The translations under genes and the position numbers were made by a program. A stretch of 64,000 nt of DNA from Tessaracoccus caeni (lineage in GTDB: Bacteria > Actinomycetota > Actinomycetes > Propionibacteriales > Propionibacteriaceae): the NCBI RefSeq assembly GCF_029211185.1, contig NZ_JARGDO010000011.1:62001-126000 (forward strand), read 5' to 3'. How positions within the stretch are numbered: the stretch's first letter is position 1; each line of letters begins with the position of its first letter. The notes below the pieces were generated by a model. It made no database searches and had not been told where the DNA came from. It saw nothing but the letters and a program-made list of their open reading frames with translations. This document shows, one piece after another, positions 45,709 to 64,000 of the stretch.

Positions 45709-45758
45709 TTGTCGGAGGGCTCCGTTAGTCTCGGTTGACGACGAGAGGAGCGACGTTG
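45709..45758 (+). promoter_or_regulatory. Promoter cassette of DUF4132 copy 1
   Basis: A 25-nt block at 45709-45733 (starts TTGTCGGAGGGCTCC) is identical at 24 of 25 bases to 53066-53090. Both are followed at the same distance (22 nt) by a GAGAGGA ribosome site and a TTG start. TAGTCT (45726-45731) is a possible -10. Confidence 0.7.
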
Positions 45759-48700
45759 CCATTCGAATTGCTGAAGAAGCTGGTGGTGGGCTCTGCCGAG
45801 AAGCCGAGTGGGCCGTTGGTTCGCGCCCTACGTCCGCTAGCAGCGCCGTCGGCGGCCCTGTCGGAGCGCTGCGTCGCTTACGTTCACGATGGCAGTGAGG
45901 CAGCTGTGCTGCTGGAACTGGAGCGGGCCCAAGGCCAGGGGCTGTTCGACCTAATGGGTCATCCGGCGTCGCTCCAGGGCTGGTGGCATCCCCAGGAGGC
46001 GACGGAGAAGGCGCTGCGTTCGGTGGGGCTGACGCCCGAGGCTGTGCCCCGGGGGCGCCATCGGTACTACTTGTCGGCGGCGAAACCGGAGCAACTGGTG
46101 CGCTTCGCCCACGTGCTCACCGCCGTCGCCCATGACGTCGAGCGCCAGGTGCCCGGCGTTCCGGTGTGGCTGACGGCGCTGCTGAACGATCTGATGGGCA
46201 CCCTTCCGCACAGCGTTCACACCGTCAGTCGGCTGGCTAAGACGCTGCCTCGCTGGAATGCCGGGTTCGTCGTGGACCTCCTGATGACGGACGGGCACCC
46301 ACGCGAAGAGGCGGAAGCCCTGGCGTTGGCTGCCATGATCCAAAAGCCGCTCAGGGAGACCTACGACGAGATCGATTCCAGCGATCTTCCCGGGGTGGAT
46401 GTGCTCTTGGCCGATCGTGGCCTCGCGGTGAAGGAGGCTGGCGTGCTCACTGCCAAGGCCAAGACCTGGCTGATGGAGCGCGCAACACGAGACCAGGCAG
46501 TGGCCGTCGCGCTGACCGACGTGGTGGCGGCTTTCACCGTCGAGTCGGCCAAGGGGCCGCGCACGGCGGCCTTGCGCGTGTTGAAGACCCTGCCTGAGGC
46601 CACACGGGCGGCAGCGATCCGCCCGGTGCTCGCGAAGGCGCCTGCCTCCCGCGCGGCGGATCTGGTGGATCTGCTGGGGCAAGACTCTCAGGGCATGAAA
46701 CTGCTGGACGAGGCCGTCAAGAATGGCGCCAAAATCACCTCACTCGTCGCGAAGGTTGGCGGGCGCCAGCATGCCATCGCGGCTGAGCAGCCCGACGAGC
46801 CCCTGGTCGTGCCGCCGTTCACCCCAGTTCCCGAGCTGGAGCTCACCCGGAGCGACGTCGAGCCATTGCGGGCTGTACTGCAGGAGATGGGGCGGGTGCG
46901 GCAGGACCACCTCGACCAGGTGATCGCCGTCGCTAATGGCTCTCATGGCAGGGTGTCTCTGCTCAACACCTACAACCTGTGGTGGCTGAGCCGCAGCATG
47001 CCGTCGCTGAACCTGATCCATCTGCTGCGGTTGTCCAGAGCTGAGCGTCCGTATTATCTGGCCGGGGCGCTCGACTTCCTGGAGGACGACGATGCCCTAG
47101 ACCTGAGAGCAGTGGAGGACGCCGTGCGTCGCGCGGGGGTGCATTCCGAGCAGATCGGCCGCGATGGCATTTCGGACAACGACCTGGCGGGCCTTGGAGT
47201 GCGGATCCCCGGAGACAAAGCCTGGCCATGGTTTGCGGGACGCCCCGATCTGGTGGAGCGATGGCTGGAGGCCGACGCGGAAAAGGCCGGTCAGATGCTG
47301 GAGGTACTCGCCCACTTCCCGCAGCTGCCAGGCCGAGTGCTGCCGAAGGTGGCGAAGCTGGCGCTCAGTGAGTCGCGCACCAACCGCCCGCGCGCCCAAG
47401 CCGCGTTGGCCGGGCATCCCTCGGCGCAAGCGCTGGCCGCGCAAGGGCTGGCCGACGGCAAGGGTGAGATCCGGGCGGCTGCGGCCGGCTGGATCGCGGC
47501 GCAGGAAATGGTCGACGGCGTCGAGTTGCTGCGCGGGGCACTGGGCAAGGAACGGCGCGAGGACGTGCGGGCTGCGATGCTCACGGCGCTCGAGATGCTG
47601 GGCGACGACATCGCGGTGCATCTCGCTCCCGCCGTGCTGGAAGCAGATGCGGCCAAGGCCCTGAAAGTGAAACCGCCGGCGTCGATGGACTGGCTCGATC
47701 TCGATCTGCTGCCCACAGTGCGGTGGGCCGATGGCTCCGTCGCTGCCCCCGCGCTGCTGCGCTGGTGGGTGGTGTTGGCGGTGAAGCTGAAGAACCCCGA
47801 CGGGTCGGGGCTGCTCGACCGCTACCTCTCGCTGCTGCATCCCGACGATGCCGCTGAGGTGGGGCGCTTCGCTCTGCGCTGGTGGATCGCGCAGGACACT
47901 CGGCATCCCGATGAGGCAGACAGCCGCGCGCATGCCGAGGCGACGGGAGAGGGGGAGTGGAATGCAGCGCAGGCTCTGGTGAAGCGGCTGAGGCGGCAAC
48001 GCAAGATCGAAGCCGACTGGCTACGCTACGCCGAGGAGCAGGCGGCACGTCCTGTGGAGGCCTTCATCGCGGACGCCTTCCGGGAGGACCAGGCCATTTA
48101 CATGGGTTCGGCCATCGCTGACAAGGGCTTGCTCGCGCTCACCACACGGATGCCCGGTTTGGGGCTGGCCTCGTCGGTGCAGTCCTACATCCGCCTCCAT
48201 GGTGGGCGGCGCGCCCAGGTGGAGGCACTGGTGCACGCGCTTTTCGCCAACGGCGATCCTGCGGCCATACAGGTACTGCTGTCCATCTCGCGCCGGTTTA
48301 GACAGGCGACGGTGCAAGCCAAGGCCAAGGAGTTGGTGGAGCGGCTTGCTGAGCAGCGGGGCTGGACGTCCGATGAACTGGCCGATCGCACCATTCCGAC
48401 GGCGGCGTTCGACGATGACGGCTTGTTGCGCCTCAGCTATGGGGAGCGGGAGTTCCTTGGGCGGGTGAACACGGCCTTCGGAATCGATGTGGCAGACCCG
48501 GATGGCAAGCCCATCAAGGCGCTGCCAAAGCCTCGGCTCTCCGATGACGAGGAGGCCGCAGCTGAGGCGAAGAAGCAGCTCACCGCCTCCCGTAAGGAGC
48601 TGAAGGTGGTGCTCACGCTGCAGGCCGCGCGGCTGTACGACGCGATGTGCGGCGGCCGCCCGTGGCCGGTGCCGGTGTGGCGGGAGTTCCTGATGTGGCA

Positions 48701-49322
48701 TCCGTTGATGGCGCAGCTGGTCACCCGGCTGATCTGGACCGAAGCGAGCGCCACTGGTGAGCGTCGGTTCCGCCCGACGGAGGACGGCGCGCTGGTCGAT
48801 CTGTCCGACGAGCCGCTGACGCTGGCCGACGACGCGGAGATACGGCTGGCGCACAGGGTGCTGATGGGCGACGATGAGGCGCGCGCCTGGCGCGAACATC
48901 TGGCCGACTACGGCGTCGTCGCGCTGTTCGATCAGCTCAGCGCCACGGTGCCCGCACACGCCGAGGGGGCCGTCGCGTTGGATGATCTGAAGGGGCACAT
49001 GACCGACAGCTTCAGCTTCCGTGGCGTGGTCACCAAGCGTGGTTACGTGCGGGGCGGCGCCCAAGACGCGGGCTGGTTCACCGAATACACCAAGGGCTTC
49101 TCCGGTCTGGGGCTCACCGCCGTGCTGGAGTTCACCGGGTCTTACCTTCCTGAAGACAACATCCCGTGCGCGACGGAGTCGTTGTTCTTCCAGCGAGGGC
49201 ATCGTCAGGTGCCGCTCAAGGACGTGCCGCCGGTGCTGCTGGCCGAGTGCTACGCCGACTATGCGGCCGTCGCCGCACTCGGCGCCTTCCATCGCGACTA
49301 CCACGAGAGGCTGCACCCGTGA
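45756..49322 (+). CDS. DUF4132 giant protein, copy 1
   Basis: A 1188-aa protein with an unusual TTG start, supported by GAGAGGAG upstream and the conserved MPFELLKKL opening shared with copy 3. The N-terminal about 450 residues are helical. A HEAT-like middle contains SRTNRPRAQAALAGHPSAQA, then LGDDIAVHLAPAV and WWVVLAVKLKNPDGSGLLDR. The C-terminal DUF4132 domain includes RFRPTEDGALVDLSDEPLTL, ADYGVVALFDQLSATVP and ECYADYAAVAAL. DUF4132 is a MolR/YehI-type domain of unknown biochemistry. It begins a co-directional array; the stop overlaps copy 2. Confidence 0.85.
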   Translation: MPFELLKKLVVGSAEKPSGPLVRALRPLAAPSAALSERCVAYVHDGSEAAVLLELERAQGQGLFDLMGHPASLQGWWHPQEATEKALRSVGLTPEAVPRGRHRYYLSAAKPEQLVRFAHVLTAVAHDVERQVPGVPVWLTALLNDLMGTLPHSVHTVSRLAKTLPRWNAGFVVDLLMTDGHPREEAEALALAAMIQKPLRETYDEIDSSDLPGVDVLLADRGLAVKEAGVLTAKAKTWLMERATRDQAVAVALTDVVAAFTVESAKGPRTAALRVLKTLPEATRAAAIRPVLAKAPASRAADLVDLLGQDSQGMKLLDEAVKNGAKITSLVAKVGGRQHAIAAEQPDEPLVVPPFTPVPELELTRSDVEPLRAVLQEMGRVRQDHLDQVIAVANGSHGRVSLLNTYNLWWLSRSMPSLNLIHLLRLSRAERPYYLAGALDFLEDDDALDLRAVEDAVRRAGVHSEQIGRDGISDNDLAGLGVRIPGDKAWPWFAGRPDLVERWLEADAEKAGQMLEVLAHFPQLPGRVLPKVAKLALSESRTNRPRAQAALAGHPSAQALAAQGLADGKGEIRAAAAGWIAAQEMVDGVELLRGALGKERREDVRAAMLTALEMLGDDIAVHLAPAVLEADAAKALKVKPPASMDWLDLDLLPTVRWADGSVAAPALLRWWVVLAVKLKNPDGSGLLDRYLSLLHPDDAAEVGRFALRWWIAQDTRHPDEADSRAHAEATGEGEWNAAQALVKRLRRQRKIEADWLRYAEEQAARPVEAFIADAFREDQAIYMGSAIADKGLLALTTRMPGLGLASSVQSYIRLHGGRRAQVEALVHALFANGDPAAIQVLLSISRRFRQATVQAKAKELVERLAEQRGWTSDELADRTIPTAAFDDDGLLRLSYGEREFLGRVNTAFGIDVADPDGKPIKALPKPRLSDDEEAAAEAKKQLTASRKELKVVLTLQAARLYDAMCGGRPWPVPVWREFLMWHPLMAQLVTRLIWTEASATGERRFRPTEDGALVDLSDEPLTLADDAEIRLAHRVLMGDDEARAWREHLADYGVVALFDQLSATVPAHAEGAVALDDLKGHMTDSFSFRGVVTKRGYVRGGAQDAGWFTEYTKGFSGLGLTAVLEFTGSYLPEDNIPCATESLFFQRGHRQVPLKDVPPVLLAECYADYAAVAALGAFHRDYHERLHP

Positions 49323-52300
49323 CGAGCATCGAACAAGAGCTGAGCGAGCTCCTGCTGCGCGCGGTACTCCGCTCGGCGGTCGGGCAGTCGGAGGCGATGG
49401 GGCAAGCGTGTGTCGGCTATGTGCGCGACGGCGAGGCGTCGGCGTTGCGAGACGTGACCGCTCTCTCGGGGCCTCCTCCATCGCGGGCTCGGCAGCGGCG
49501 CTGCGGTGAGGTGGAGGAGTGGTGGCAGCGGTTTGATGCGCTGGATGAGGCATTGCAGCAAGCCGGGGTGATTGTCCGCGAGCCCACCCGGCTGCGGCAC
49601 CGCTACTATGCGTCGCGGCCGTCGCCCGAGGAACTGATGCGGTTCGCCCGGCTGCTCCCTGTCCTGGTCGGCGGCGTCGAGCGTCGGGTTCCTGGGGTGC
49701 CGGCGTGGCTGATGATGCTGCTCGACGACGTGGTAGACACTGCGCTGAATCCCCACCCCGTCGAGGAGCACCTGAAGAACCCACCGTCGGACCCGTCACC
49801 CGATGCTCCGATGTTCTTCGTTAGCGGGGGAGACCCCGATTATGTCTCCGACGCGACGGCCCTCGCGAGCGTCCTTCCCGGGTGGGACGCGTCCTTCGTC
49901 GCGGAACTGCTCGTCGCCGATGGCCACGCGCGCGAGGAGGCAGAGGTGCTCGCGCTGCTCGCGATGGTCCAGAAGCCGGGCGAGCTGCGCTACGGCAGGG
50001 TCGCGGTCAGCGATCTGCCGGGCGTCGTCGAGTTGCTGGCCGCGCGCGGGCTGCCCGCTACCGACGCGGCCAAGCTCGATACGGGGGCCAAGGTGTGGCT
50101 GATGGAGCGCGCGGCAGGTGATCCCGGCCTGGCCGGTGCCCTGGCTGAGACGATCGTCGCGCTCACCGTGGATGGGGTGAGGGAAGCCAGGCTCGCCGCA
50201 ATCCGGGCGTTCGAAACGTTGCCCGATGACGTGCGCTCCCAGCTGGTCGTCCCCGTCCTGGTGGCGGCGCCGTCCAAGCACACCGATGATCTAGTGGAAC
50301 TGCTGACGCGCACCGCTGGCGGGGCGGAGCTACTGTCCGATGCGCTGGCGCGCGGCGCGCAGATCGGCATGATCGTCGAATGGTTCGCGCGGCGGCAGCA
50401 GGCCGTTGATGCCGACGACAGGGAAGAATGGATCTTCCCCTACTACCAGCCCGAGGAAGAGGTCCGGGCCGGAAGCGAAGCCATCGAGGAGCTGCGGCAG
50501 GCGGTTGCAGACAGAGCACACGATGCCCGTCGGCACCGGAAACAGGCGTGGGCGCAGCAGCAACTGGCCCAGATCGAGACGCTCACCCGCGACGACTACG
50601 ACGATGTGGTGCGGGCCGCCAATGGTGAGCCGGTCGTGCCGCAGCTGGTGAAGACCTTCGGCGTCTCCTGGGTGAGTTACGCCGCCTACTCGCTCAGCCT
50701 CGTTCATCTGCTTCGCCTGGCCCGCCACGACCCGGACAACACCGACCTGCTGGATGTCGCAGACCGGCGGTGGCTTCCGCCCGATCCACGCTTGCTGGAG
50801 GACGCCGTCCGGTGCGCGGGCGTGCATGCCGATCAGATCGGCGCGGAGGGTGTCACACAGGATCGTCTGGCGCGGCGCGCGATGGCGAACATCGACGAGC
50901 AAGCTTGGCCTTGGTTTGCCGAGAACCCGCAGGTGCTCGAGCGCTGGCTGGTGGGTGACGCCGCCGAGACGAACGCCGCCCTTCGCGTGCTGACCCGGTT
51001 CCCCAGCCTGCCGCAGACTTTCACGCCTTTGGTGGCGCGCATCGCGGTGAGCGACTCGCGTCTGAACCGACCCCTGGCGCAGCAGCTGCTCGCGCCCCAT
51101 CCCGAGGCCGTCGCGATCGCCGCGTCGGGCTTGGCCGATGCCAGTAGCGACGTGCGCGCGGCTTCTGCCAGCTGGCTCGCCATGCTGGGCGACGCGGCGG
51201 GAATCGAGCCGCTGCGTTCGGCACTGGTCAAAGAGAGACGCCCGAAGACGCAAGCCGCGATGCTCAGCGCGCTAGAGGTGCTGGGTGACGACATTTCCGT
51301 GTACCTCGCTCCAGAGGTGCTTGCGGCTGAGGCCGCGAAGGGCCTGAAGGCCAGGCCGCCCGCGTCCTTGGCCTGGCTGGATCTCGATCTCCTTCCGTCC
51401 GTGCGCTGGGTTAGCGGCGACGCCGTCGACCCGGCGGTGCTTCGCTGGTGGTTCGTGCTGGCTGTGAAGGTCAAGAACCCGGATGGAACCGGGCTGTTCG
51501 ACCGCTACCTCTCTCTTCTCGATGCTCGCGACGCGGAAGAGGTCGGGCGGTTCGCGTTGCGAGCCTGGATTGGCCACGACACCGCTCACCCCGCTGAGGA
51601 AGACAGTCGCGCCCACGCGGCGGTTCTGGGACTTCAGTGGTGGCAGGACGCTCAGGATGACCTGAAGGAGATGCGCAAACTCCGGCGTATCGATCCGGCG
51701 AACCTGCGCCACTGGGAGGAACGAGCCGCCATCCCGAAGGACGAACACATCGCTGGCGTGTTCCGCGAGCATCAGGCCACCTACCTCGGCTCGGCGGTCG
51801 CAGACAAAGGCCTCCTGGCGCTGACCACACGGATGCCGGGGGCGGAACTGGCAGCGGCTGTGCAGTCGTACATCCGCGACCATGGCGGGCGGCGTGCCCA
51901 GGTTGAGGCCCTGGTGACGGCGCTGTACGGCAACGGCGATCTCGCAGCGCTCCAGCTGCTGCTGTCGATCTCGCGGCGGTTCGGGCAGCGGACGGTGCAG
52001 GACAAAGCGAGACAGTTCGTCGAGCGGCTGGCCGAGCAGCGTGGCTGGACACCCGACGAGCTGGCCGATCGTACCGTCCCTGACGCTGGTTTCGGCGACG
52101 ATGCCGTGTTGCGCCTCAGCTATGGGCCGAGGGAGTTCATAGGGCGCGTCAACGCGAGATTCGGCATTGACCTCTCCGACCCGGACGGCACACCGATCAA
52201 GGCCCTATCCGCTCCGCGAGTCTCCGACGACGCGGACGCCGCTGCGGAGGCGAAGAAGCAACTCGTTGCGTCACGCAAGGAGGTGAAGGCTGTGCTGACG

Positions 52301-53005
52301 GCGCAGACTGGGAGGCTCCACGACGCGATGTGTGCCGGCAGGACGTGGTCGGCACAGGTGTGGCGAGAGGTGATGCTGGGGCATCCGTTGATGGCGCAGC
52401 TGGCCAGCCGACTGATCTGGGAGATCCTGGGTGAAACCGGTCGGCGCAGATTCCGGCCCACCGAAGACGGCGAGCTGATCGACGTGTCCGACGAGTCCGT
52501 GACGTTGGCCGACGATGCAGAGGTGCGGTTGGTGCACAGGGTGCTGATGGACGACAACGAGGCGCAGGCTTGGCGCAAGCATCTGGCCGACTATGGCGTC
52601 GTCACGCTGTTCGATCAGCTCAGCGCTACGCCGCCGGTTTTCGACGAAGATGCCGATGCCTTGGACGACCTGCAAGGTCATCTGACCGATACCCGCCGTT
52701 TCCGCAGGGCGGCCACTAAGCGTGGCTACGTCCGGGGCGAGCCGGACGAGTTCTCCTGGTTCACCGAGTACGTCAAGCCCTTCCCGACCACCGGATTTAC
52801 GGCGGTGCTGGGGCTCACCGGTTCCTCCCTGTTCGAGGAGAATGTCGCCTGCGCAACGGAGTCCTTGTCCTTCCGGCGCGGCCGGCGCGATGTGGTTCTG
52901 AGAGAAGTCCCGCCGGTGCTGCTGGCCGAGTGCTACGCCGACTACGCGGCCGTCGCCGCGCTTGGGCCCTTCGACGTCGATTACCACGAGAAGGTGGGAT
53001 CTTGA
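49319..53005 (+). CDS. DUF4132 giant protein, copy 2
   Basis: A 1228-aa paralogue whose GTG overlaps the copy 1 stop, so the two are translated together. The order of domains is the same: helical N-terminus (EQELSELLLRAVLRSAVGQS), HEAT-like middle (SDSRLNRPLAQQLLAPHPEA), then the DUF4132 C-terminus ending AECYADYAAVAALGPFDVDY. Shared blocks with copy 4, such as DLVELL followed by GGAELL, distinguish this pair from copies 1 and 3. The N-terminus lacks the FELLKKL opening of copies 1 and 3. Confidence 0.85.
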   Translation: MTSIEQELSELLLRAVLRSAVGQSEAMGQACVGYVRDGEASALRDVTALSGPPPSRARQRRCGEVEEWWQRFDALDEALQQAGVIVREPTRLRHRYYASRPSPEELMRFARLLPVLVGGVERRVPGVPAWLMMLLDDVVDTALNPHPVEEHLKNPPSDPSPDAPMFFVSGGDPDYVSDATALASVLPGWDASFVAELLVADGHAREEAEVLALLAMVQKPGELRYGRVAVSDLPGVVELLAARGLPATDAAKLDTGAKVWLMERAAGDPGLAGALAETIVALTVDGVREARLAAIRAFETLPDDVRSQLVVPVLVAAPSKHTDDLVELLTRTAGGAELLSDALARGAQIGMIVEWFARRQQAVDADDREEWIFPYYQPEEEVRAGSEAIEELRQAVADRAHDARRHRKQAWAQQQLAQIETLTRDDYDDVVRAANGEPVVPQLVKTFGVSWVSYAAYSLSLVHLLRLARHDPDNTDLLDVADRRWLPPDPRLLEDAVRCAGVHADQIGAEGVTQDRLARRAMANIDEQAWPWFAENPQVLERWLVGDAAETNAALRVLTRFPSLPQTFTPLVARIAVSDSRLNRPLAQQLLAPHPEAVAIAASGLADASSDVRAASASWLAMLGDAAGIEPLRSALVKERRPKTQAAMLSALEVLGDDISVYLAPEVLAAEAAKGLKARPPASLAWLDLDLLPSVRWVSGDAVDPAVLRWWFVLAVKVKNPDGTGLFDRYLSLLDARDAEEVGRFALRAWIGHDTAHPAEEDSRAHAAVLGLQWWQDAQDDLKEMRKLRRIDPANLRHWEERAAIPKDEHIAGVFREHQATYLGSAVADKGLLALTTRMPGAELAAAVQSYIRDHGGRRAQVEALVTALYGNGDLAALQLLLSISRRFGQRTVQDKARQFVERLAEQRGWTPDELADRTVPDAGFGDDAVLRLSYGPREFIGRVNARFGIDLSDPDGTPIKALSAPRVSDDADAAAEAKKQLVASRKEVKAVLTAQTGRLHDAMCAGRTWSAQVWREVMLGHPLMAQLASRLIWEILGETGRRRFRPTEDGELIDVSDESVTLADDAEVRLVHRVLMDDNEAQAWRKHLADYGVVTLFDQLSATPPVFDEDADALDDLQGHLTDTRRFRRAATKRGYVRGEPDEFSWFTEYVKPFPTTGFTAVLGLTGSSLFEENVACATESLSFRRGRRDVVLREVPPVLLAECYADYAAVAALGPFDVDYHEKVGS

Positions 53006-53065
53006 TGTTCCTCCGCGACGGCGTTTCGCTCCGCTGCCACGACCGGTTTTCGGCGTCGATCCTGA

Positions 53066-53115
53066 TTGTCGGAGGGCTCCATTAGTCTCGTCAGGCAACG
53101 AGAGGAATCGCGTTG
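53066..53115 (+). promoter_or_regulatory. Promoter cassette of DUF4132 copy 3 (duplicate of 45709)
   Basis: Same 25-nt block (53066-53090), ribosome site and TTG spacing as before copy 1. It sits in the only real intergenic gap of the array (53006-53112), so copies 3 and 4 can have their own transcript. Confidence 0.7.
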
Positions 53116-56100
53116 GTATTCGACAAGCTGAAGAAGTTGTTCGCGGGGTCACGGCCGTCCGTCGTGGTGGCCGCCCGCACCGATGACGCGGCGGTGCTGC
53201 AGGCGGCTCTGCTTCCCTTGGTCGCGCACTCCCGGGTGCTGGCCGATCGCTGCGTGGCGTTCGTTCGCGACGGCAGTGACCCAGGCGTGCTCTGGGATCT
53301 GGAACATGCGGCAAACCCGGAGCTGGTGCAGTTGCTGCACAATCCTGCGCGGCTCGACCCCTGGTGGTGGGCGGCGGAGTCCACGAGGAAGGCATGGGAG
53401 GGGTTGGGCCTGACGCCCGATCACGTGCTCCAGGGTCGCCACAACTACTATGGCGCCTCGCATCCTCCGGAGGAGTTGGTGCGTCTCGGCCGGTTGCTCG
53501 CGGCGCTCGCCACCGAGGTCAACCGCCAGGCCGACGGCGTGCCGCTGTGGCTCACCGCGCTGCTCAACGACGTGGTGGCCACCATCCCCAACCGTGCCGC
53601 GGGAAGGGAGTCGATCATGCAGGCCCTTCCGCAGTGGCAAGCGGGGTTCGTCGTTCAGCTGCTGTCCGTCGACGGTGAAGCCGGGGGAGATGAGGCAGCG
53701 GTGGCGCTGCGCGCTCTCATTCAAGCGTCCCCGGATTCCGGGTATCGCAGGTTCCAACCCCACGAGCTGCCCGGGGTCCGGGAGCTGATCCTGAGTTGTG
53801 GGCGCCTGTCACCTTCGCAGGTCGCCGGGCTGAACGCCGAGGCGCGCGTCTGGCTCATGCAGAAGGCTGCGGACGAGGTCGGCGTCGGAGAGGCGTTGTC
53901 CGACGTGGTGGCGGCTTACACCGTCGATACCGCAAAGAGCGTTCGGGCCGCGGCGCTGAATGCCCTGAGCAGGCTGTCGCAGCAGTGCCGGGCAGAGGCC
54001 ATCGCTCCGGTGCTGGCCCGGGCATCGGCTAGCCGGGCGGCGGATCTCGTCGAGGCGCTCAGCCGCGATCCGCAGGGGACGCGGCTGCTTGCGGAGGCCG
54101 TCGAAGGCGGGGCGAAGATCGGTGCGCTCGTCGCGCAGAGTACCCAGCGCATGGAGGCCATCGAAGCGAAGGATGACGGGCAGCCCGTGCTGGTGCCGCC
54201 ATTCACCCCGTTGCCGGATACGCCGGCGGGCCCGGAGGTCGTCGATCAGCTGCGAGCAGCGTTGGACGCGGAGATCGCGCGCGCCCAGGGCAAGAACATC
54301 ACCTGGGCTCAGCGCGCCATGGAGAAGGAGCGGGGCATCAATCGCACCCAGCTCGAACAGGTGGTGGCCGCCGCCAATGGGGCGCAGGTCGAGGTGAAGC
54401 TGCTCAAGGAGTACAACCTGTGATGGCTGAGCAATGCCGCCCCGTCGTTAAACCTCATTCATCTGCTGAGACTGGCCCGGCACGAGCGCTTTCGGCGGAT
54501 CAACAACGCGCTCTACGTTCAACGCGCCAAGATCCACGACCTGAGGGTCGCGGACGACGCGGTGCGCCGGGCCGGCGTGCACGCCGACCAGATCGGAGAC
54601 GCTGGCATCTCCGACGACGATCTGGCCGCCTTCGGAATGCGTATCGCCGGCGAGTGCGCCTGGCCATGGTTCGCCGAGCGACCTTGGGTGCTGGAGCGCT
54701 GGCTCGCAGGAGACGCTGAGCGGGTCGGCGATGCGCTGGTGCTGCTCGCCGACTTCCCGCAATTGCCCAGCCAGGTGCTGCCGCTGGTGGCCAAGGTGGC
54801 GCTCAGCGAGTCCCGCACCAATCGTCCGCGGGCCCAGGCAGCGCTTTCGGGCCATCCCGCCGCCCCGGCCCTTGCCGTCCAGGGGCTCGCCGACGGGAAG
54901 GGCGAGGTGCGCGCCGCAGCGGCCGCCTGGATCGCCGCCGATGGCATGACCGACGGCGTTGAGCCGCTACGGCGGGCGCTCGCCAAGGAGAAGCGCGAGG
55001 GGGCCCGGGCTGCCATGCTCACCGCGCTGGAGCAGTTGGGCGATGACATCTCGGCCCATCTCACTCCGGAGAAGCTCTACGCCGAGGTGACCAAGGGGCT
55101 GAAGGCGAAGCCCCCAGCGTCGATGAGCTGGCTGAACCTCGACCAGCTGCCCGCCGTCCGGTGGGCCGATGGCGCACCTGTTGATCCGGCGCTGCTGCGC
55201 TGGTGGTTCGTGCTCGCGGTGAAGCTGAAAAACCCCGATGGCTCCGGTCTGTTCGACCGCTACCTCTCGCTGCTCGACGCCGACGACGCGGCCGAGGTGG
55301 GACGCGTCGCCCTGCGGTCGTGGATCGCGCAGGACACATGTCACCCGGAGGAGGCCGAGAGTCGAGCGCACGCCGAGGCGATGGGGCCGCAGCGTTGGAG
55401 GGATGCTCAGGATCTGGTGCAGCGGTTGAAGGCGAACCCGAAGGTCGATGTCAATTGGCTGCGCTACGCCGAGGAAAGGGCGGCGCTGCCGGTGGAGCAG
55501 TTCGTCGCCGAGGTGTTCCGCCAGGAGCAAGCCGTCTATCTCGGCTCGGCGATCGCGGACAAGGGGATGCTCGCCCTCACCACCCGAATGCCGGGCGTGG
55601 AGCTGGCGGCCGCCGTGCAGTCCTACATCCGAGCCCACGGGGCGCGGCGCGCCCAGGTGGAGGCGCTGGTGCACACGCTGTTCGCCAACGCCGATCCCGC
55701 AGCCATCCAACTGTTGCTGTCGATCGCCCGGAGGTTCAAGCAGGTCACGGTGCAGGCGCGCGCGAGGGAGCTGGTGGAACGGCTTGCCGACGAGCGTGGC
55801 TGGAGCGCTGACGAGCTGGCCGACCGCACCATTCCCACCGCCGGCTTCAGCGACGACAAGATGCTGCATCTCAGCTTTGGCGAGCGGGAGTTCCTCGGCA
55901 GAGTGAACCCCAAGTTCGGCATCGACCTGACAGATCCGGACGGAAAGCCGATCAAGGCGCTGCCCGGTCCTCGGGTCTCCGACGATGCCGAGGCCGCGGC
56001 CGACGCGAAGAAACAGCTGTCCGCGTCGCGCAAGGAGCTGAAGGCGGTGCTGACGCTACAGAGCGCCCGGCTGTACGAGGCGATGTGCGGCGGCCGGTCC

Positions 56101-56760
56101 TGGCCCGTTCCGGTGTGGCAGGAGTACGTGCCGGGACATCCGCTGATGTCCCAGCTGGCTACTCGGCTGATCTGGGCCGAGGCAGGCGCGGCCGGCGAGC
56201 GACGGTTCCGGCCCACAGAAGACGGCGAGTTGATCGATCTGAACGACGAGCCGATTGAGCTCGACGGCGCAGGGGAGGTCCGGCTCGCGCACCGAGTCCA
56301 TATGGGCCCGGAGGAGGCAGGCCTCTGGCGTGCCCACCTCGCCGACTACGGCATGACGGCGCTTTTCGACCAGCTCAGCGCCACCGTGCCCGAACACGAG
56401 GACGGTGCCACGGCGCTGGAGAACCTCAAGGGACACATGACCGATACGTTCAGCTTCCGCAGCGTCGCCACCAAGCGCGGTTACACCCGAGGCATGGCGG
56501 AAGACGCGGGGTGGTTCACCGAGTACACCAAGTCGTTCTCCAGCACGGGGCTGACCGCCGTGCTGGAGTTCACCGGCTCCTATTTGCCGGAAGACAACAT
56601 CCCGTGCGCCACGGAATCGCTCTGCTTCCGACGCGGCTACACGCAGGTGTCCCTCGTGGAGGTACCTCCTGTGCTGTTGGCAGAGTGCTACGCCGACTAC
56701 GCGGCAATGGCGGCCCTCGGCCCGTTCGACCCGGCCTACCGAGACAAGGCGGGCATCTGA
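53113..56760 (+). pseudogene. DUF4132 copy 3, interrupted by one in-frame TGA
   Basis: Reads as 1215 codons apart from TGA at 54421-54423 (codon 437), in a KEYNL-stop-WLSNAAPSLNL context. The aligned position in copy 1 is NLWWLS, so the stop replaces a tryptophan codon (TGG to TGA, one base). The frame is open on both sides: MVFDKLKKLFAGSRPS at the start, DUF4132 motifs such as FRPTEDGELIDLNDEP and CYADYAAMAALG near the end. A GTG at 54562 could start a separate C-terminal fragment. TTG start with GAGAGGA, as in copy 1. Recent loss of function is the simplest reading; sequencing error or readthrough are possible. Confidence 0.82.
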
Positions 56761-59700
56761 TGAGCATGGTGGCCCAACCCAGCCACGAGCTTCGGGAGGC
56801 ACTGCGCCCGCTGGCCGGGCACTCCGACGATCTCTACCAGCGGTGCGTCGCCTTTGTGCACGACGGCACCGATCCGATGGTGCTGCACGAGGTGGGCGTC
56901 GTGACGAAGCCACGGCTGTGGTCCCTGCTGGGTTACCCGGGGTCAATGCAGGGCGGCCGATGGGCGTGGGTGGGCACGAGCACCAGGCGTGCGCTGAAGA
57001 AGGTGGGCGTGAAGCCAAAGGGGCGGAGCAAACGGCGCCGCCGGTACTACGCCACCCGGCCGTCACCGGATGAGCTGGTGCGCTACGCGCGTTTGGTGTG
57101 CGCGATGATGGACGACGTCGAACGGCAGGCACCGGGGGTGCCGCTCTGGCTTACCGTTCTTATCAACGATGTGGTCATCGCCGTCCCGCATCAGGTCAGA
57201 GACACGGAGTCGCTGGCTCAGACACTTCCCGGCTGGGATGCTTCCCTGATGACAGAGTTGCTCGTCGCCGATGGTTGCACCCGCGACGAGGCAGAGCTGC
57301 TGGCGCTGGTCGCGTTGATCCAAAGACCCGCCGATGGCTACGGCTACAGCCACCCCAGTCCCGGCGACCTTCCGGGGGTCTCCAAGCTGCTCACCACTCG
57401 AGGGCTCGCTGCAAAGGAAGTGGCAAGGCTCAGCGCAAGCACGCGTATCTGGGTGCTGGAGCGTGCCGCGAGCGAGCCAGAGGTGGGAAACGCGCTGGCT
57501 GCGACGGTGGCGGAACTCACCGTCGACGCGGCCAAGGGGCCGAGGCGGGCGGCGCTCCAGGCCCTCAGGGTGCTGCCAGCCGACGTTCGGGCCGAGGTGA
57601 TCGCGCCGGTGCTCGGGCGGATCGCTCCCCGGCGTGCGGAGGATCTGGTCGAACTTCTGGCGACGCTGCCCGGTGGCCCGGAGCTGCTGGCAGACGCCGT
57701 TGACGGAGGCGCCAAGATCGGCGTTCTGGTGGACAAGGCCGGTGTACGGCGCGACGCGATCGAGGCCGAGCAAGTGCCCGACCACCTGGTGCTGCCGCCC
57801 TACGACATGCCCACCGAGGTGCCCGCCACGGACGAGGTGATCGCGGAGTTGCGGGCCGCGCTCGCGCAGGAGATCGAGGAATGGGAGGCGCCGCCGGAAC
57901 GCTCTGCGCATGGGTGGCTGATGACGTTCGGAAAGAAGGAATATCAGAAGGACAAGAAGAAGGCCCTGGCTGAGGCCCGGCGTATCACCGAGACCGACCT
58001 CGCGGATGTGGTGCGTGCCGCCAATGGTAAGGGCACGGCGTCGAGGGTGCTCAAAACCTACGGCCTTTCGTGGATCGCCGAGGCCGCGCCGTCGCTCAAC
58101 CTGATCCATCTTCTGCGCCTGGAACTGCTCGACCCGGAGCCCGAGTTGTTGTACGTCTCGGGCGGCTCTGAACCGGAGGATCTGCGCACTCGAGAGCATC
58201 TCATCCGGCTGGTCGGTGGGCATGCTGACCAGATCGGCGCGAAGGGCGTGAGCGTCGACGACTTCGCCGAGCATGCGCTGCGGCGGCCCGAGTTGGTGTC
58301 CTGGCCTTGGTTCGCCGGGCACCTGGAGATACTCGAGCGCTGGCTCATGGGTGACACCAACGACGTGGCGAACGCGCTACGCCTGCTGGAGTGGTTCCCC
58401 AGGCTTCCGCCGTCGCTGGTGCCGCTGGTGGCGCGCGTCGCGGTGAGCGAGTCGCGGCTCAACCATCCGGTGGCGCAGCGGTTGCTCAGTGACCACCCGG
58501 CGGCCCTTGGGCTGGCCGTCCAGGCGCTCGCCGACGGAAAGGGCGAGATTCGCGTCGGCGCTGCGGGATGGATCGCCGCGCAGCACACCTGGGCGGGAAT
58601 CGAGCCACTGCAGGCGGCGCTGGCCAAGGAGAAGCGGCCCCCGGTGCAGGCGGCGTTGCTCAGCGCGCTGGAGATCCTGGGAGACGACATCTCGGTTCAC
58701 CTCGCACCCGACACTCTTCACGGCGAGGCGGTCAGAGGGCTGAAGGCCAAGCTGCCGGCGTCGATGAGCTGGCTGAACCTGGACCTGTTGCCTACCGTGC
58801 GATGGAGCAACGGCACGCCCGCCGATCCCCTGGTGCTGCGGTGGTGGTTCGTGCTTGCGGTGAAAGTGAGGAATCCCGACGGCTCCGGGCTGTTCGACCG
58901 CTATCTCTCGCTCCTGCACCCCGACGACGCGGCGGACGTGGGGCGATTCGCGCTACGAGCGTGGATCGCGCGGGACACCCAGCACCCGGACGAGGCAGAT
59001 AGTCACGCCTACGCCGATGCCGAGGGGACGCTGTGGTGGAAAGGAGTGCAGCAGTACGCCCGAGATCTGCGCAAGGTGTCCGGCATCGACCCAGACGCCC
59101 TGCGTGAGGCCGAGGCCGACGCCGACCGTCCGCTGGAGCAGTTCGTTGCGAGAGCCTTTCGTGAGCATCAGGCAACCTACGTCGGCTCTGCGATCGCCGA
59201 CAAGGGTTTGCTCGCCTTAACCACACGGATGCCGGACGTGGAGCTCGCGGCGGCGGTGCAGTCCTACATCCGGGCCCATGGCGCGCGGCGGGCTCAGGTA
59301 GAGGCGTTGGTGCACGCGCTCTTCGCCAACGGCGACCCCGCGGCGCTCCAGTTGCTGCTGTCCATCGCCCGCCGGTTTGGGCAGGTGACGGTGCAGAAGA
59401 AGGCCAAGGAACTGGTGGAGCGGCTGGCGGATGAACGCGGCTGGACCACGGAGGAACTGGCTGATCGCACCATCCCCGCCGCAGGCTTCGCCGACGACGG
59501 GATGCTGCACCTCAGCTACGGCCCGCGCGAGTTCCTGGGACGAGTGAACACCGGCTTCGGGATCGACCTCTCCCACTCCGACGGCACGCCCCTCAAGGCG
59601 CTGCCTGCGCCGCGGGTCTCGGACGACGCCGAGGCGGCCGCGGAGGCGAAGAAGCAGCTGTCCGCGTCGCGCAAGGAGCTGAAGGCCGTGCTCACGTTGC

Positions 59701-60401
59701 AGGCCGCCCGGCTGCACGACGCCATGTGCGCCGGTCGCGGGTGGCCTACTTCAGACTGGCTAGCGTTCATCGTCGGCCACCCTCTGATGGGGCAGCTGGC
59801 CACTCGGCTGGTCTGGATGGAGGTGGGTGATGGTGCTATTCGCACCTTCCGGCCCACCGAGGACGGCGAACTGATCGACGCGGACGACCAGGTCGTCGTG
59901 TTGGCGGAGTCCGCGGAGGTGCGCCTCGCGCATTGCGTGGTGGTGGGCGACGCCGAGGCGGAGCGGTGGGCTGAGCATCTGCGCGACTATCAGGTGACTC
60001 CACTGTTCGATCAGTTCTCGGCGACGCCGCCGGCCTATCCCGACGATGCTGTCGAGCTGAGCGATCTGCAGGGACACGTCACGGATACGTTCAGCTTCCG
60101 CGCCGTGGCCGCCAAGCGGGGATACCGGCGCGGTGGGGACGAGGGCAGCGGGTGGTTCACCGGCTACACGAAGGGATTCTCGAGTGCCGGGCTGGTCGCC
60201 ATGATCGAGTTCACCGGAGCGAACGTGCCCGAAGAGAACATGCCGTGTGCGACGGAGTCGCTGTACTTCCTGCGCGGTGAGCAGAGTGAGCAGAAGGTGC
60301 CGTTGCGAGAGGTGCCTCCCGTGATGCTCGCCGAGTGTTACGCCGACTACGCTGCGTTTGCGGCGCTCGGCCCCTTCGATCCCGACTACTGGAAGAGATG
60401 A
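56760..60401 (+). CDS. DUF4132 giant protein, copy 4
   Basis: A 1213-aa paralogue whose ATG shares one base with the copy 3 stop (TGATG). It begins MSMVAQPSHELREALRPLAG, without the FDKLKKL leader of copies 1 and 3. The HEAT-like middle (SESRLNHPVAQRLLSDHPAA) and C-terminal DUF4132 blocks (RTFRPTEDGELIDADDQ, ECYADYAAFAALGPFDPDYW) are intact. Its stop overlaps the MoxR start (ATGA), so it is coupled to the ATPase. Closest to copy 2 in several blocks (DLVELL then GGPELL). Confidence 0.85.
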   Translation: MSMVAQPSHELREALRPLAGHSDDLYQRCVAFVHDGTDPMVLHEVGVVTKPRLWSLLGYPGSMQGGRWAWVGTSTRRALKKVGVKPKGRSKRRRRYYATRPSPDELVRYARLVCAMMDDVERQAPGVPLWLTVLINDVVIAVPHQVRDTESLAQTLPGWDASLMTELLVADGCTRDEAELLALVALIQRPADGYGYSHPSPGDLPGVSKLLTTRGLAAKEVARLSASTRIWVLERAASEPEVGNALAATVAELTVDAAKGPRRAALQALRVLPADVRAEVIAPVLGRIAPRRAEDLVELLATLPGGPELLADAVDGGAKIGVLVDKAGVRRDAIEAEQVPDHLVLPPYDMPTEVPATDEVIAELRAALAQEIEEWEAPPERSAHGWLMTFGKKEYQKDKKKALAEARRITETDLADVVRAANGKGTASRVLKTYGLSWIAEAAPSLNLIHLLRLELLDPEPELLYVSGGSEPEDLRTREHLIRLVGGHADQIGAKGVSVDDFAEHALRRPELVSWPWFAGHLEILERWLMGDTNDVANALRLLEWFPRLPPSLVPLVARVAVSESRLNHPVAQRLLSDHPAALGLAVQALADGKGEIRVGAAGWIAAQHTWAGIEPLQAALAKEKRPPVQAALLSALEILGDDISVHLAPDTLHGEAVRGLKAKLPASMSWLNLDLLPTVRWSNGTPADPLVLRWWFVLAVKVRNPDGSGLFDRYLSLLHPDDAADVGRFALRAWIARDTQHPDEADSHAYADAEGTLWWKGVQQYARDLRKVSGIDPDALREAEADADRPLEQFVARAFREHQATYVGSAIADKGLLALTTRMPDVELAAAVQSYIRAHGARRAQVEALVHALFANGDPAALQLLLSIARRFGQVTVQKKAKELVERLADERGWTTEELADRTIPAAGFADDGMLHLSYGPREFLGRVNTGFGIDLSHSDGTPLKALPAPRVSDDAEAAAEAKKQLSASRKELKAVLTLQAARLHDAMCAGRGWPTSDWLAFIVGHPLMGQLATRLVWMEVGDGAIRTFRPTEDGELIDADDQVVVLAESAEVRLAHCVVVGDAEAERWAEHLRDYQVTPLFDQFSATPPAYPDDAVELSDLQGHVTDTFSFRAVAAKRGYRRGGDEGSGWFTGYTKGFSSAGLVAMIEFTGANVPEENMPCATESLYFLRGEQSEQKVPLREVPPVMLAECYADYAAFAALGPFDPDYWKR

Positions 60402-61516
60402 GCGTGCGGATGACGACGGATCAGAGCGCCGAGCTGAGGCCGCCGGCCGAGGTGCGCTACGCCGATGAGCTGGCCCGGCTGGAGACGGCCGACCGAGCCG
60501 CGAACATGGAGCGTCCGCCCGGGTGGGCGCTGTCGCCGCGCTTCGTACGCTCCTTCATCGTGGGCGACGAGGCGCTCGGCGTGAGCCGCAAGTTCTACGG
60601 TGACGATCCCCTGGTGGATCGGGCGATCGTCTCCTTGCTGGGCCGACAAGGCTTGATGCTGGTGGGCGAGCCGGGCACCGCCAAGTCGATGCTGTCGGAG
60701 TTGTTGGCCGCCGCTATCTCCGGTTCGTCGACGCTGACCATCCAAGGATCGGCCGGCACCACGGAAGACCACATCCGCTACTCGTGGAACTATGCGCTGC
60801 TGATCGCCGAGGGCCCCAGCGAGCGTTCGCTGGTGCCGTCGCCGGTGTATCAGGCGATGCAGGCGGGCCGGGTGGTGCGCTTCGAGGAGATCACCCGCTG
60901 CCCGCCGGAGATCCAGGACACCTTGGTGTCCATCCTCAGCGAGAAGCAGCTGATGGTGCCCGAGTTGGGCGGCGAGGCGCGGGTGTCCGCCCGGCCGGGC
61001 TTCACGGTGATCGCCACGGCCAACCTCCGCGACCGGGGCGTGCACGAGATGTCGGCCGCTCTCAAACGTCGCTTCAACTTCGAGACCGTGCGCCCCATCC
61101 GTGATCGGGCCTTCGAGGCGGAACTCATCGGACGCAGCCTCGACGCGGAGCTGGGGGAGCGTCGTCCGCCCGTGCCGCCCGCCGTGCTGGATGTGCTGGT
61201 GACGGCCTTCGCCGACCTGCGCACCGGCACCACCGATGCAGGCACGCCCGTGAAGCGACCCGAGGCGGTGATGTCGACGGCCGAGGCGGTCAACGTCGCC
61301 ATCGCGGCGTCGATGTCGGCCCGCTACCTGGGCTCCGGCACCGTCACCGCGGGGGAGGTCGCCCAGCAGCTGGTCGGCGTCGCGCTCAAGGGATCGGAAG
61401 AGGACGCTCGCATGATGCGTCACTACGTCGACAACGTGGTGCGCGAGCGGGCCCGGCGCAGCCCCGAATGGCGGGCCTTCTTCGATGCGGCGGATGCGCT
61501 GTGGCGGGCGGGATAG
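60398..61516 (+). CDS. MoxR-type AAA+ ATPase (YehL-like)
   Basis: A 372-aa ATPase. Walker A is GEPGTAKS (residues 90-97) and Walker B-like VVRFEEITRCPPEIQDTLVS (residues 160-179) has Phe-Glu-Glu in place of the common DE box. FTVIATANLRDRGVHEMSAA is sensor 1 and ALKRRFNFETV the arginine-finger region. MoxR ATPases work with VWA-domain proteins as assembly or remodelling factors. The ATG overlaps the copy 4 stop, and the DUF5682 start lies 16 bp inside this gene. Confidence 0.88.
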   Translation: MSVRMTTDQSAELRPPAEVRYADELARLETADRAANMERPPGWALSPRFVRSFIVGDEALGVSRKFYGDDPLVDRAIVSLLGRQGLMLVGEPGTAKSMLSELLAAAISGSSTLTIQGSAGTTEDHIRYSWNYALLIAEGPSERSLVPSPVYQAMQAGRVVRFEEITRCPPEIQDTLVSILSEKQLMVPELGGEARVSARPGFTVIATANLRDRGVHEMSAALKRRFNFETVRPIRDRAFEAELIGRSLDAELGERRPPVPPAVLDVLVTAFADLRTGTTDAGTPVKRPEAVMSTAEAVNVAIAASMSARYLGSGTVTAGEVAQQLVGVALKGSEEDARMMRHYVDNVVRERARRSPEWRAFFDAADALWRAG

Positions 61517-63903
61517 CTCCGACGGCGCCGCCGCGGCTGGCGCGGGGCATGGCGTCCCTGCGACGCTGGGGCGAGGCCGGTGTGCATCTGGCGCCCATCC
61601 GGCACCATTCGCCGGGGTGCGCCGCCGCGTTGCGAGCGCTGCTCGACGAGGTGCGCCCGGCGACCGTGTTGATCGAGGGGCCCCGCGAATACGGCGCGCT
61701 GCTGGATGCCCTGACCGACGAGCAGACCCGGCCGCCCGTCGCGGTGCTGTCGCTGGATGGGCCGCACGCGGCCTTCTACCCGCTGGCCGAGTTCTCCCCG
61801 GAATGGGTGGCGCTGCGCTGGGGTGCCGAGAATGACGCGACGGTGGACTTCATCGACCAATCCTGGGCCGATCAAGCCCGAGTGGAGAGCGACGACGATC
61901 CGGGCGCGGTCGTGCGCACCCTGCAAGCCGAGCGGCATCTCGCGCAGAGTCGGGCCATCGCGGCTCTCGCCGCAGACCTTGGCTGCCGCGATCACGACGA
62001 CGTGTGGGAGCACCTCTTCGAGCTGCGCGGCGGCGACGAGCTGCACCGGTGGCGGGAGTACTTCCAGGCGGTGCTCGGGTGGGCGGCGCTCGCCAGGTTG
62101 GAGACGGAGCGCGCGGTGCTCGACGCCGACGGCACCCATGGGCGCGAGGCCGTGATGGCGGCGATGCTGGCCCGCCACCGCGCCGCCGACCGCGGCGCCA
62201 TCGTCGTCGTCACCGGAGCCTTCCACACCCTCGGGCTGCTGGAGGCCCTCGACGATCGCGAGGAGGGGCGCTGGATCACGTCCCATCGTCTAGGAGCCCT
62301 CGATGTCGCGCGGCCGGCCTGGCTGATCCGCTACGACTTCACGCGGCTGGACGGCCTTCGCGGCTACGGGGCGGGTATGCCGGCGCCCGGCTTCTGGCAG
62401 CGGGCCTGGGAGGGGCGAGCCAGCGGAGACGACGGTCGCCGGCTGGCCGTCGAGGTGCTGCTCGACGTGGCGGCGGAGCTGCGTGCCCAGGGCGAGCAGC
62501 TGAGCGTCGCCGACGTGACCGCCGCCGCCGAGCAGGCCCTTCGGCTGGCGGATCTGCGCGGACGCGCCTGGCCCGGCCGCACCGACCTGCTGGACGCCAT
62601 GCTGAGCTGCTTCGTCAAGGACGACGGCGGTCTGGGTGGCCCGTTGGGGCGGGCCATCGACGCGGTGTTCGGCGGCACCGCGCTGGGCGAGCTGCCTCCG
62701 GGCGTCGAGGCGGTCCCGCTGGTGGCCGAGGTGCGTGCGATCGCGTCGAAGCTGCGCTTCGTGATCGACGACGGCGCCACCCGCGCCGTGAGCCTCGACA
62801 CCGCGCGCAAGCCCGCACACGTGCGTCGGCGGGAGTTCCTTGCCACCATGCGCTTCATCGGCTCGCGGTTCACCCGCCAACTCGGCGGCCCGGACCTGGT
62901 CGCGGGCACCGGGCTGGGGGTGCTGCACGAGGAGTGGGAATACGCGTGGACGCCCATGGTGGAGGCCGCGCTGATCGAGGTGAGCCGCGAGGGCGCCACG
63001 CTGGAGGACGTGCGACGGCGCCGGATAGCGCAGCGCCTGGAGGGACGCGAGGCCGACGCCGGTGCGGTGTCGGAGACGCTCTCGGAGCTGGCGGTGATGG
63101 GTGCGGCGGAGGAACTGCCCTCGGTGATGGGGGTGTTGGAGGCCGCCTACGACGCCGACCCCCAGCTGGGGTCGGTGGTGGCGAGCCTGCACCGGGTGAT
63201 GGCGCTGCTCGTCGAGCGCGGGCGGCTGGCGCTGGGCGACCAGGAGAAGGCTTTGCGACGCCCGCTCCGGGTAGGGCTCGCGAGCGCGGCCTATCAGCTC
63301 GCTCAGGTGGACGCCGTCGACGACGCCAACGCCGGGTCCGTCTGCGACGCGGTGCTGAGTCTGCGCGATCTGCTGCGTCGCCTCGACGTCGTCGATCTGG
63401 TTGACGACGCGGCCGGCGTGCGCCGCGAACTCACGCGCCTTCGGCAGCGCGAGACCTCCGCTCGGTTGCACGGCTGCCTCGTCGCGGTGGCCTACGCCGC
63501 CGATGAGATCGACGCCGGCGAACTGCGCTCTGAGGTGGCAGCTCATCTGCATCCCGGCGCCGATCCCGACCGCCTGGCGGCCTTCCTGCTCGGGCTGATG
63601 CAGGCCTCGCCCGATCTGGTGCTGCACTCGCCGGAGCTGCTGGAGGCGCTCAACGACTCCTTGGCAGAGATGGAGGACGGCGCCTTCTTGTCGGTGCTGC
63701 CCGACCTGCGGCAGGCCTTCACCTGGCTGCGGCCCAGCGAGACCAACCGGCTGGCTAGCGCCGTCGCCCAACTCACTTCCGCCGATGTCCGCCAGTTCGA
63801 CGCCGTGCTGCGGATCGACCCGGCCCTTGCGGCTGAGGCCCGGCGAGTGGAGCAGGAGCTGCTGGCCGGCTTCGCCCGCGATCACGTGAGGGTACCGTCG
63901 TGA
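61501..63903 (+). CDS. DUF5682 family protein (YehM-like)
   Basis: An 800-aa protein, partner of MoxR and VWA in this type of cluster. The opening VHLAPIRHHSPGCAAALRAL and VLIEGPREYGALLDAL is diagnostic of DUF5682. Further parts are LARHRAADRGAIVVVTGAFH and EWEYAWTPMVEAALIEVSRE. No catalytic mechanism is known. GTG 61501 overlaps the MoxR end; ATG 61549 (MASLRRWGEAG) is the alternative. Its stop overlaps the next start, so all genes from copy 3 onward are coupled. Confidence 0.82.
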   Translation: MAGGIAPTAPPRLARGMASLRRWGEAGVHLAPIRHHSPGCAAALRALLDEVRPATVLIEGPREYGALLDALTDEQTRPPVAVLSLDGPHAAFYPLAEFSPEWVALRWGAENDATVDFIDQSWADQARVESDDDPGAVVRTLQAERHLAQSRAIAALAADLGCRDHDDVWEHLFELRGGDELHRWREYFQAVLGWAALARLETERAVLDADGTHGREAVMAAMLARHRAADRGAIVVVTGAFHTLGLLEALDDREEGRWITSHRLGALDVARPAWLIRYDFTRLDGLRGYGAGMPAPGFWQRAWEGRASGDDGRRLAVEVLLDVAAELRAQGEQLSVADVTAAAEQALRLADLRGRAWPGRTDLLDAMLSCFVKDDGGLGGPLGRAIDAVFGGTALGELPPGVEAVPLVAEVRAIASKLRFVIDDGATRAVSLDTARKPAHVRRREFLATMRFIGSRFTRQLGGPDLVAGTGLGVLHEEWEYAWTPMVEAALIEVSREGATLEDVRRRRIAQRLEGREADAGAVSETLSELAVMGAAEELPSVMGVLEAAYDADPQLGSVVASLHRVMALLVERGRLALGDQEKALRRPLRVGLASAAYQLAQVDAVDDANAGSVCDAVLSLRDLLRRLDVVDLVDDAAGVRRELTRLRQRETSARLHGCLVAVAYAADEIDAGELRSEVAAHLHPGADPDRLAAFLLGLMQASPDLVLHSPELLEALNDSLAEMEDGAFLSVLPDLRQAFTWLRPSETNRLASAVAQLTSADVRQFDAVLRIDPALAAEARRVEQELLAGFARDHVRVPS

Positions 63904-64000
63904 GCGCGGAACTAGTGCGGCGCTGGAGGCTGGTGCTGGGGCGTTACGCGGATCAGCAGCTCCCGGCCGGCTCGGCAGACGCCGGGCTGGAGTCCACGCT
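63900..64000 (+). CDS. Probable VWA-domain protein (YehP-like), 5' end only
   Basis: GTG 63900 overlaps the DUF5682 stop. The 33 visible codons (SAELVRRWRLVLGRYADQQL onward) match the usual N-terminus (R-R-W-R-L-V-L-G) of the VWA partner in MoxR/DUF5682 clusters. The VWA domain itself is outside the window, so the call rests on position and this short stretch. Confidence 0.6.
   Translation, partial: MSAELVRRWRLVLGRYADQQLPAGSADAGLEST

Follow-up and report, generated by a model that had tools for sequence, protein, structure and literature searches.

What a row of four very large DUF4132 genes does for a bacterium when it is joined to a single MoxR-type ATPase gene is the question raised by the DNA stretch considered here (hereafter "the window"; 64,000 nucleotides, C2:62001-126000 of a Tessaracoccus caeni assembly of 4.16 Mb in 82 contigs). 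The nearest well-known counterpart would be the yeh operon of E. coli K-12, for which we know of no agreed function. A sequence-only reading of the window had made this family assignment and had suggested that the expansion of DUF4132 creates a recogniser of multiple specificities driven by one ATPase module.

Composition and layout of the cluster

The cluster has the gene order A1-A2-A3-A4 (DUF4132), MoxR, DUF5682, VWA_CoxE and a SWIM-motif gene, the last two of which extend beyond the window. Pfam cut-offs are exceeded by DUF4132, AAA_5 and DUF5682, and the genome contains four DUF4132 matches (E ≤ 0.001), every one of them inside the window. A1 (45756–49322, 1188 aa, TTG start) is composed of helical, HEAT-like repeats and a C-terminal DUF4132 domain; A2 (49319–53005, 1228 aa) and A4 (56760–60401, about 1,213 aa) are its paralogues. 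HEAT matches in the window copies fall under the Pfam cut-offs, and structure models of A1 and of the DUF5682 protein display helical repeats plus alpha/beta parts. The third copy, A3, is broken in the assembly by an in-frame TGA (54421–54423), resulting in a first part of 436 codons (53113–54423) and a second part of 778 codons (54424–56760), which continues in the same frame and holds the DUF4132 domain. Four paralogues of about 1,200 aa in head-to-tail arrangement had been claimed initially; four copies are indeed present, with 53–63% identity in the six pairs over 1,167–1,190 aligned columns, which is beyond chance, but one of them is split.

The array is followed by a MoxR AAA+ ATPase close to YehL (60398–61516, P-loop GEPGTAKS), a DUF5682 protein of the YehM type (61501–63903), in which an N-terminal alpha/beta domain with a possible resemblance to ChaN precedes helical repeats, and a VWA_CoxE protein of the YehP type with the MIDAS sequence DQSGS (63900–64000, running to about 65018 outside the window, L005:3900-5018), all of them, like A1 to A4, on the plus strand. 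Both expectations for the region past position 64000 were borne out, namely a probable VWA gene as the next gene and a SWIM gene thereafter; the latter carries the motif CxCx6CxH, and its product is without a Pfam match. Pfam matches and gene order agree with those of E. coli and the agreement extends to the SWIM gene, so that the assignment to yeh-type MoxR-VWA sets was right and can be regarded as near certain.

Most neighbouring genes overlap, by 4 bp (A1/A2, A4/MoxR, DUF5682/VWA, VWA/SWIM) or 1 bp (A3/A4); for MoxR and DUF5682, a start at the GTG of position 61501 gives an overlap of 16 bp, and use of the later ATG leaves a gap. Overlaps of 1–16 bp had been stated for the entire set, which holds except for A2 and A3; these are separated by 107 bp, and the gap contains a promoter-like element that is also present before A1.

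Two further features adjoin the cluster. A HipA-like gene (Couple_hipA + HipA_C) lies on the minus strand at L005:6752-8005 (window about 66752–68005), convergent with the cluster end, and directly upstream of the A1 promoter, at 45650–45687, a 24–38 bp sequence containing AAAATCGGCCA is found, which recurs at 26 further places in the genome as a REP-like dispersed repeat.

Origin and distribution of the DUF4132 copies

The homologue searches listed the best 120 of 7,996 and the best 120 of 7,997 scored candidates, and trees were calculated from 47 of the 120 homologues listed by the first of these searches together with the window copies. A1 to A4 form one group with P0005, P0007 and P0012, with an SH-aLRT value of 99 in the trees of both the N part and the C part. 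Within this group, A2 and A4 (with P0007) belong together (99 and 94 for the N and C part, respectively) and the grouping of A1 with A3 is weak (a value of 23 for the C part). Upstream of A1 lies a 41-bp stretch that is found again upstream of A3 (85%). From these sequence relationships, the four copies probably arose by tandem duplication of a two-gene unit including its promoter (A1-A2 to A3-A4).

Per 100 columns, identity between the copies amounts to 26–55% in the first 500 alignment columns and to 54–81% from column 600 on. The synonymous distance dS is 0.70–1.23 in all parts, that of the C part being slightly below that of the N part in all six pairs, and dN of the N part is 2.0–3.1 times that of the C part. 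Rapid N-terminal change is, however, a trait of the family, because background pairs of homologues, chosen to include neither a window copy nor P0007, have a median N/C distance ratio of 2.07 (5–95% range 1.68–2.53, maximum 3.06), the N part changing about twice as fast as the C part. Among the ratios of the window pairs (1.85, 2.04, 2.06, 2.34, 2.58 and 2.91), four of six are ordinary; those of A1/A3 and A2/A3 exceed by a small margin every background pair matched to them (43 and 236, respectively), which may be due to relaxed constraint on the interrupted copy. A4 and P0007 differ by 35% in the N part and by 7% in the C part, corresponding to a ratio of 6.1, for which just four matched background pairs exist. 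For the multi-specificity recogniser, the far outlying A4/P0007 ratio gives a slight hint, and the ordinary ratios of four window pairs and the interruption of one copy do not favour it.

These data also bear on a simpler explanation, according to which the array is the product of recombination-driven tandem duplication and is decaying, with no gain in specificity. This concerns the copy number only and is compatible with other explanations of the cluster; it is consistent with the interrupted copy 3, with the largely ordinary N/C divergence and with the situation in E. coli K-12, where two neighbouring DUF4132 genes are likewise present, one of which, yehH, is a pseudogene. Three of the window copies have, however, retained uninterrupted frames of about 1,200 codons despite a dS of 0.7–1.2, with dN well below dS, and have therefore been kept under constraint, and relatives of A1 (P0012) and A4 (P0007) are present elsewhere. 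On balance, we regard mere duplication and decay as a possibility of some standing, albeit a somewhat improbable one.

In a survey of 293 genomes of the order, in which up to three DUF5682 candidates were scored per genome and linkage was defined as DUF4132 within 25 kb, DUF5682 matches fell by score into class L (88), class M (5), class S, to which the window belongs (24), and fragments or weak matches (9). Linkage to DUF4132 was found for 20 of 24 in class S, four of five in class M and four of nine among the fragments or weak matches, and for none of the 88 high-scoring members of class L, the largest other subtype. Seen from the DUF4132 side, 38 of 66 matches were linked to DUF5682 and 28 unlinked, some of the unlinked ones lying at contig ends. 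The expectation that DUF4132 and its partner genes would be clustered elsewhere holds, accordingly, for most cases of this DUF5682 subtype and for DUF4132 at large in part. Repeated DUF4132 was found in the clusters of other genomes as well: the 20 linked class S clusters contain one copy (14 clusters), two (3), three (2) or four (the window). The array thus marks the upper end of the range in this sample and is no singular arrangement.

In 15 named loci, the cluster genes that were found keep the order and direction of the window, L018 and L024 being contig fragments; L016 has 2–3 kb of extra sequence on each side of DUF5682, and in L023 DUF4132 is contained in two frames. A different arrangement is seen in eight loci of the genus (L033-L040), in which DUF5682 and VWA precede DUF4132 and MoxR is placed at an end. 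By cluster proteins, the nearest named relatives among the matches listed are mostly Propionibacteriaceae, plus one Promicromonosporaceae MAG, and relatives of the yeh-type cluster are found in several phyla.

Several loci deserve mention in their own right. On the mobilizable plasmid pl1 of Iodobacter fluviatilis (L101), a DUF4132 x2-MoxR-DUF5682-VWA-SWIM cluster is situated among IS elements and adjoins a type I restriction system that includes a PDDEXK nuclease. Split or stop-containing DUF5682 genes occur at G257:C1:470386-472544, G018:C35:4920-7151, G020:C1:905669-906634 and in L102. In a phage collection, the sole MoxR relative at E 1e-5 (44% identity) is from MT835988.1, an unannotated 14-kb record from human faeces named "Bacteriophage sp.", which may be a bacterial contig.

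A candidate DNA-damage promoter

In actinobacteria, a DNA-damage promoter named RecA-NDp has the consensus tTGTCRgtg-8 nt-TannnT (PMC5656591). PafBC is reported to act through this promoter (PMC6789036, PMC8223512), which is said to reach beyond mycobacteria (PMC8223512), and to be activated by ssDNA in mycobacteria (PMC11804915); in S. venezuelae, the mycobacterial PafBC motif is reportedly not conserved (PMC9380542). In the window, RecA-NDp-like elements on the plus strand, both of the form TTGTCGGAG-N8-TAGTCT, precede A1 (45709–45731) and A3 (53066–53088). Each agrees with the consensus at 11 of 12 defined positions with the exact 8-nt spacing and deviates at position 8.

The motif was first seen by eye at A1 and A3, and the W in the search pattern TTGTCRGWG-N8-TANNNT was added to admit both. 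With this pattern, seven sites were found in the genome (reversed control, none), two of which are those before A1 and A3; the published T at position 8 is present in one of the seven, outside the cluster, before a menaquinone-methyltransferase-like gene. The looser pattern TTGTCRG-N10-TANNNT yielded 20 sites versus four for the control. Among the genes that follow motif sites, Pfam identifies DnaB, a DUF1016 gene and one DUF222 gene, and inspection by eye suggests three more DUF222-type genes, a UvrA-like ATPase, PhoH and a RhuM-like gene; some strict matches stand before genes for which a link to repair is not known (SppA-like and MFS, by eye). The site of recA is weaker (9/12). Next to TatC, the genome encodes a PafB-like/PafC-like pair in the form of adjoining WYL genes; WYL was assigned by Pfam, and TatC, PafB and PafC are identifications by eye. 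The RecA-NDp-like promoters of the four DUF222-type genes (L060, L063, L067 and L068; Pfam on one, the rest by eye) resemble one another closely and end in TAGCGT.

A wider basis is provided by 43 related loci (705,409 bp), which are no unbiased sample because they had been fetched for holding DUF4132 or DUF5682. Applying a rule of at least 10/12 with TGTC and TA fixed, 24 RecA-NDp-like sites were found, compared with two each for the reversed consensus and the complemented sequence. Of these 24, 15 precede DUF4132 or cluster genes, four dinB or uvrB, and five other frames. The cluster-associated sites comprise 13 before a DUF4132 gene or before the WGR frame in its place (L037 and L041), those of L042 and L050 lying outside DUF5682 clusters, as well as one before MoxR and one before a 1,535-aa frame beside a class M cluster; for L034 and L079, the WGR assignment is backed by Pfam. 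In three loci (L034:5685, L035:5645, L036:17746), dinB with its own RecA-NDp-like site adjoins the DUF4132 cluster, and one such site is found before uvrB, both genes being identified by eye. At least 17 DUF4132 loci among the 43 are devoid of a 10/12 site before the gene (L016, L017 = L075, L024, L031, L032, L033, L039, L040, L072, L073, L076, L078, L080-L084). Given the elements before A1 and A3, we predict with fair confidence that the cluster is under DNA-damage control in the host lineage.

As a side observation, the genus has a second type of cluster, with class M DUF5682 (L048:3812, 4847, 12909). It contains MoxR, a gene for a short DUF4132 protein and a frame of 1,535 aa that matches nothing in Pfam, and each of these three has its own RecA-NDp-like site.

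Damage-responsive promoters would also suit an anti-phage conflict system, in which they sense infection, the DUF4132 copies recognise different invaders and MoxR-VWA acts as the switch. MoxR-vWA conflict systems have been described (PMC7159879), and in keeping with such a role are the patchy presence in the genus (DUF4132 in 17 of 39 genomes, DUF5682 of all subtypes in 17 of 39), the variation of DUF4132 copy number from one to four, the surroundings of the Iodobacter plasmid cluster, the DUF1016 and RhuM-like genes among the motif-bearing ones, and the unequal divergence of A4 and P0007. Against it, none of the nine cluster protein pieces matches a PADLOC-DB model at E 0.01, the Pfam scan of the cluster recognised no effector domain, nine of ten frames scanned upstream within the window belong to metabolic, transport or other ordinary families (one being without match), and fast N-terminal change is family-wide. 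The described ternary systems (with VMAP, iSTAND, FtsH or beta-propeller components; PMC7159879) have the MoxR and VWA core in common with the cluster, and the P-loop GEPGTAKS fits the GXXXTAKS form given for two of them, but the bpMoxR match of the window protein stays below threshold (24.5 bits, cut-off 27). No Pfam match in the cluster was obtained for a beta-propeller third component, the models of A1 and DUF5682 being built of helical repeats plus alpha/beta parts, nor for VMAP, iSTAND or FtsH, for some of which Pfam may lack models; the main text of PMC7159879 contains no occurrence of YehL, SWIM, DUF4132 or DUF5682. All in all, a function in phage defence appears unlikely to us.

Predicted role and relation to known systems

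The explanation to which we give about even weight is that the cluster is a yeh-type MoxR-VWA remodelling module with HEAT-like arms, which is probably induced by DNA damage. The promoters before A1 and A3 are placed such that they could transcribe the DUF4132 array as well as the downstream MoxR-DUF5682-VWA-SWIM genes. MoxR would form an ATPase ring, the VWA protein would grip a client peptide via its MIDAS site, and the long helical-repeat DUF4132 proteins would dock clients or partners on the ring. Contacts to DNA or DNA-bound proteins may be made by the SWIM protein and, in relatives, by a WGR domain at the N-terminus of DUF4132, and DUF5682 would add a putative ChaN-like domain whose conserved His/Glu may be catalytic. 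The likely job of such a module would be the stripping or rebuilding of protein complexes on damaged DNA.

Remodelling could, alternatively, serve the maturation of a metal enzyme, as with CoxD-CoxE and as the historical name MolR implies. The VWA protein is of the CoxE type, and MoxR-VWA pairs are described to mature or activate protein complexes, a role that extends to the insertion of metals (PMC3893208, PMC7159879). In the annotated stretches, however, no target enzyme gene lies beside the cluster, the other loci having been checked for cluster genes only, and D. radiodurans moeA and moeB are reported as not differentially expressed where DUF4132 genes were (PMC8533742); we consider a metal-enzyme chaperone quite unlikely. 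The proposed remodelling module resembles RavA-ViaA in being a MoxR-VWA pair with proposed chaperone-like roles, but RavA and YehL are listed as separate MoxR subfamilies (PMC3893208).

In E. coli K-12, the gene order is yehF, yehH (a pseudogene with a DUF4132 match), yehI, yehK, yehL, yehM, yehP and yehQ, and the succession of DUF4132, MoxR, DUF5682, VWA and SWIM is the same as in the window. In both, DUF4132 genes are neighbours and one copy is broken; there are, however, two of them in E. coli versus four in the window, and the WGR gene and yehK occur in E. coli only. Tblastn identities to K-12 are 49% for MoxR (364 residues), which shares its P-loop with YehL, 43% for VWA (367), 30% for DUF5682 (546) and about 28–33% over about 235–280 residues for DUF4132; between the SWIM protein and YehQ, tblastn gave no match at E 1e-4, and the motif alone is common to both. 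The gene molR corresponds, as we assume, to the yeh locus. It is listed as LexA-regulated (PMC11039860, PMC3978071), so that the PafBC-type element of the window would contrast with a LexA-type one in E. coli. A LexA-like box (13/20) lies directly upstream of yehF; since scores of 12 and 13 are reached at two further positions within these 24 kb, the box by itself is not significant. No LexA box was accepted at the clusters of Proteus, Xenorhabdus or Iodobacter.

From Deinococcus, the D. deserti operon Deide_18730-18690 (ddrTUVWX; SWIM ... VWA CoxE-like) is described as preceded by an RDRM and as IrrE-dependent, with some of its genes belonging to those most strongly induced by radiation, its function being given as unknown (PMC5552922). 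In D. taeanensis, the order is SWIM-DUF5691-AAA-DUF5682-VWA, from which we infer that ddrU-W encode DUF5691, MoxR and DUF5682; within 25.4 kb of this genome, the top-scoring RDRM-like site (13/15) is situated 20 bp before the SWIM gene, sites of this score numbering 0.28 on average in shuffles. In D. radiodurans, DRA0166 (DUF4132) is reported to rise with mitomycin C in an IrrE-dependent manner, DRA0166 and DR2173 (WGR) to respond to DdrO or IrrE, and DUF4132 genes and MolR are mentioned together (all PMC8533742).

Taken across phyla, yeh-type MoxR-VWA-SWIM clusters might constitute a DNA-damage machine that remodels protein-DNA complexes under three unrelated regulators, LexA in enterobacteria, DdrO in Deinococcus and PafBC in actinobacteria; the DUF4132 arms would set client choice, and the four-copy array would therefore widen the client range. 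We put this forward tentatively, as a rather unlikely generalisation. Parts of it are already known (Deinococcus ddrTUVWX and DRA0166, E. coli molR), and the literature within reach of our search, mostly outside subscription papers, held no report joining yeh-type clusters across phyla or describing the actinobacterial promoter link. With a shared regulatory signature, what is now an "unknown MoxR operon" would give rise to a DNA-damage hypothesis that can be tested directly. The ddrTUVWX-type clusters of Deinococcus are close to the window in their SWIM, MoxR, DUF5682 and VWA CoxE components and in the DNA-damage control that we predict for the window, and differ from it in that DUF5691 is present, DUF4132 is absent and the SWIM gene comes first.
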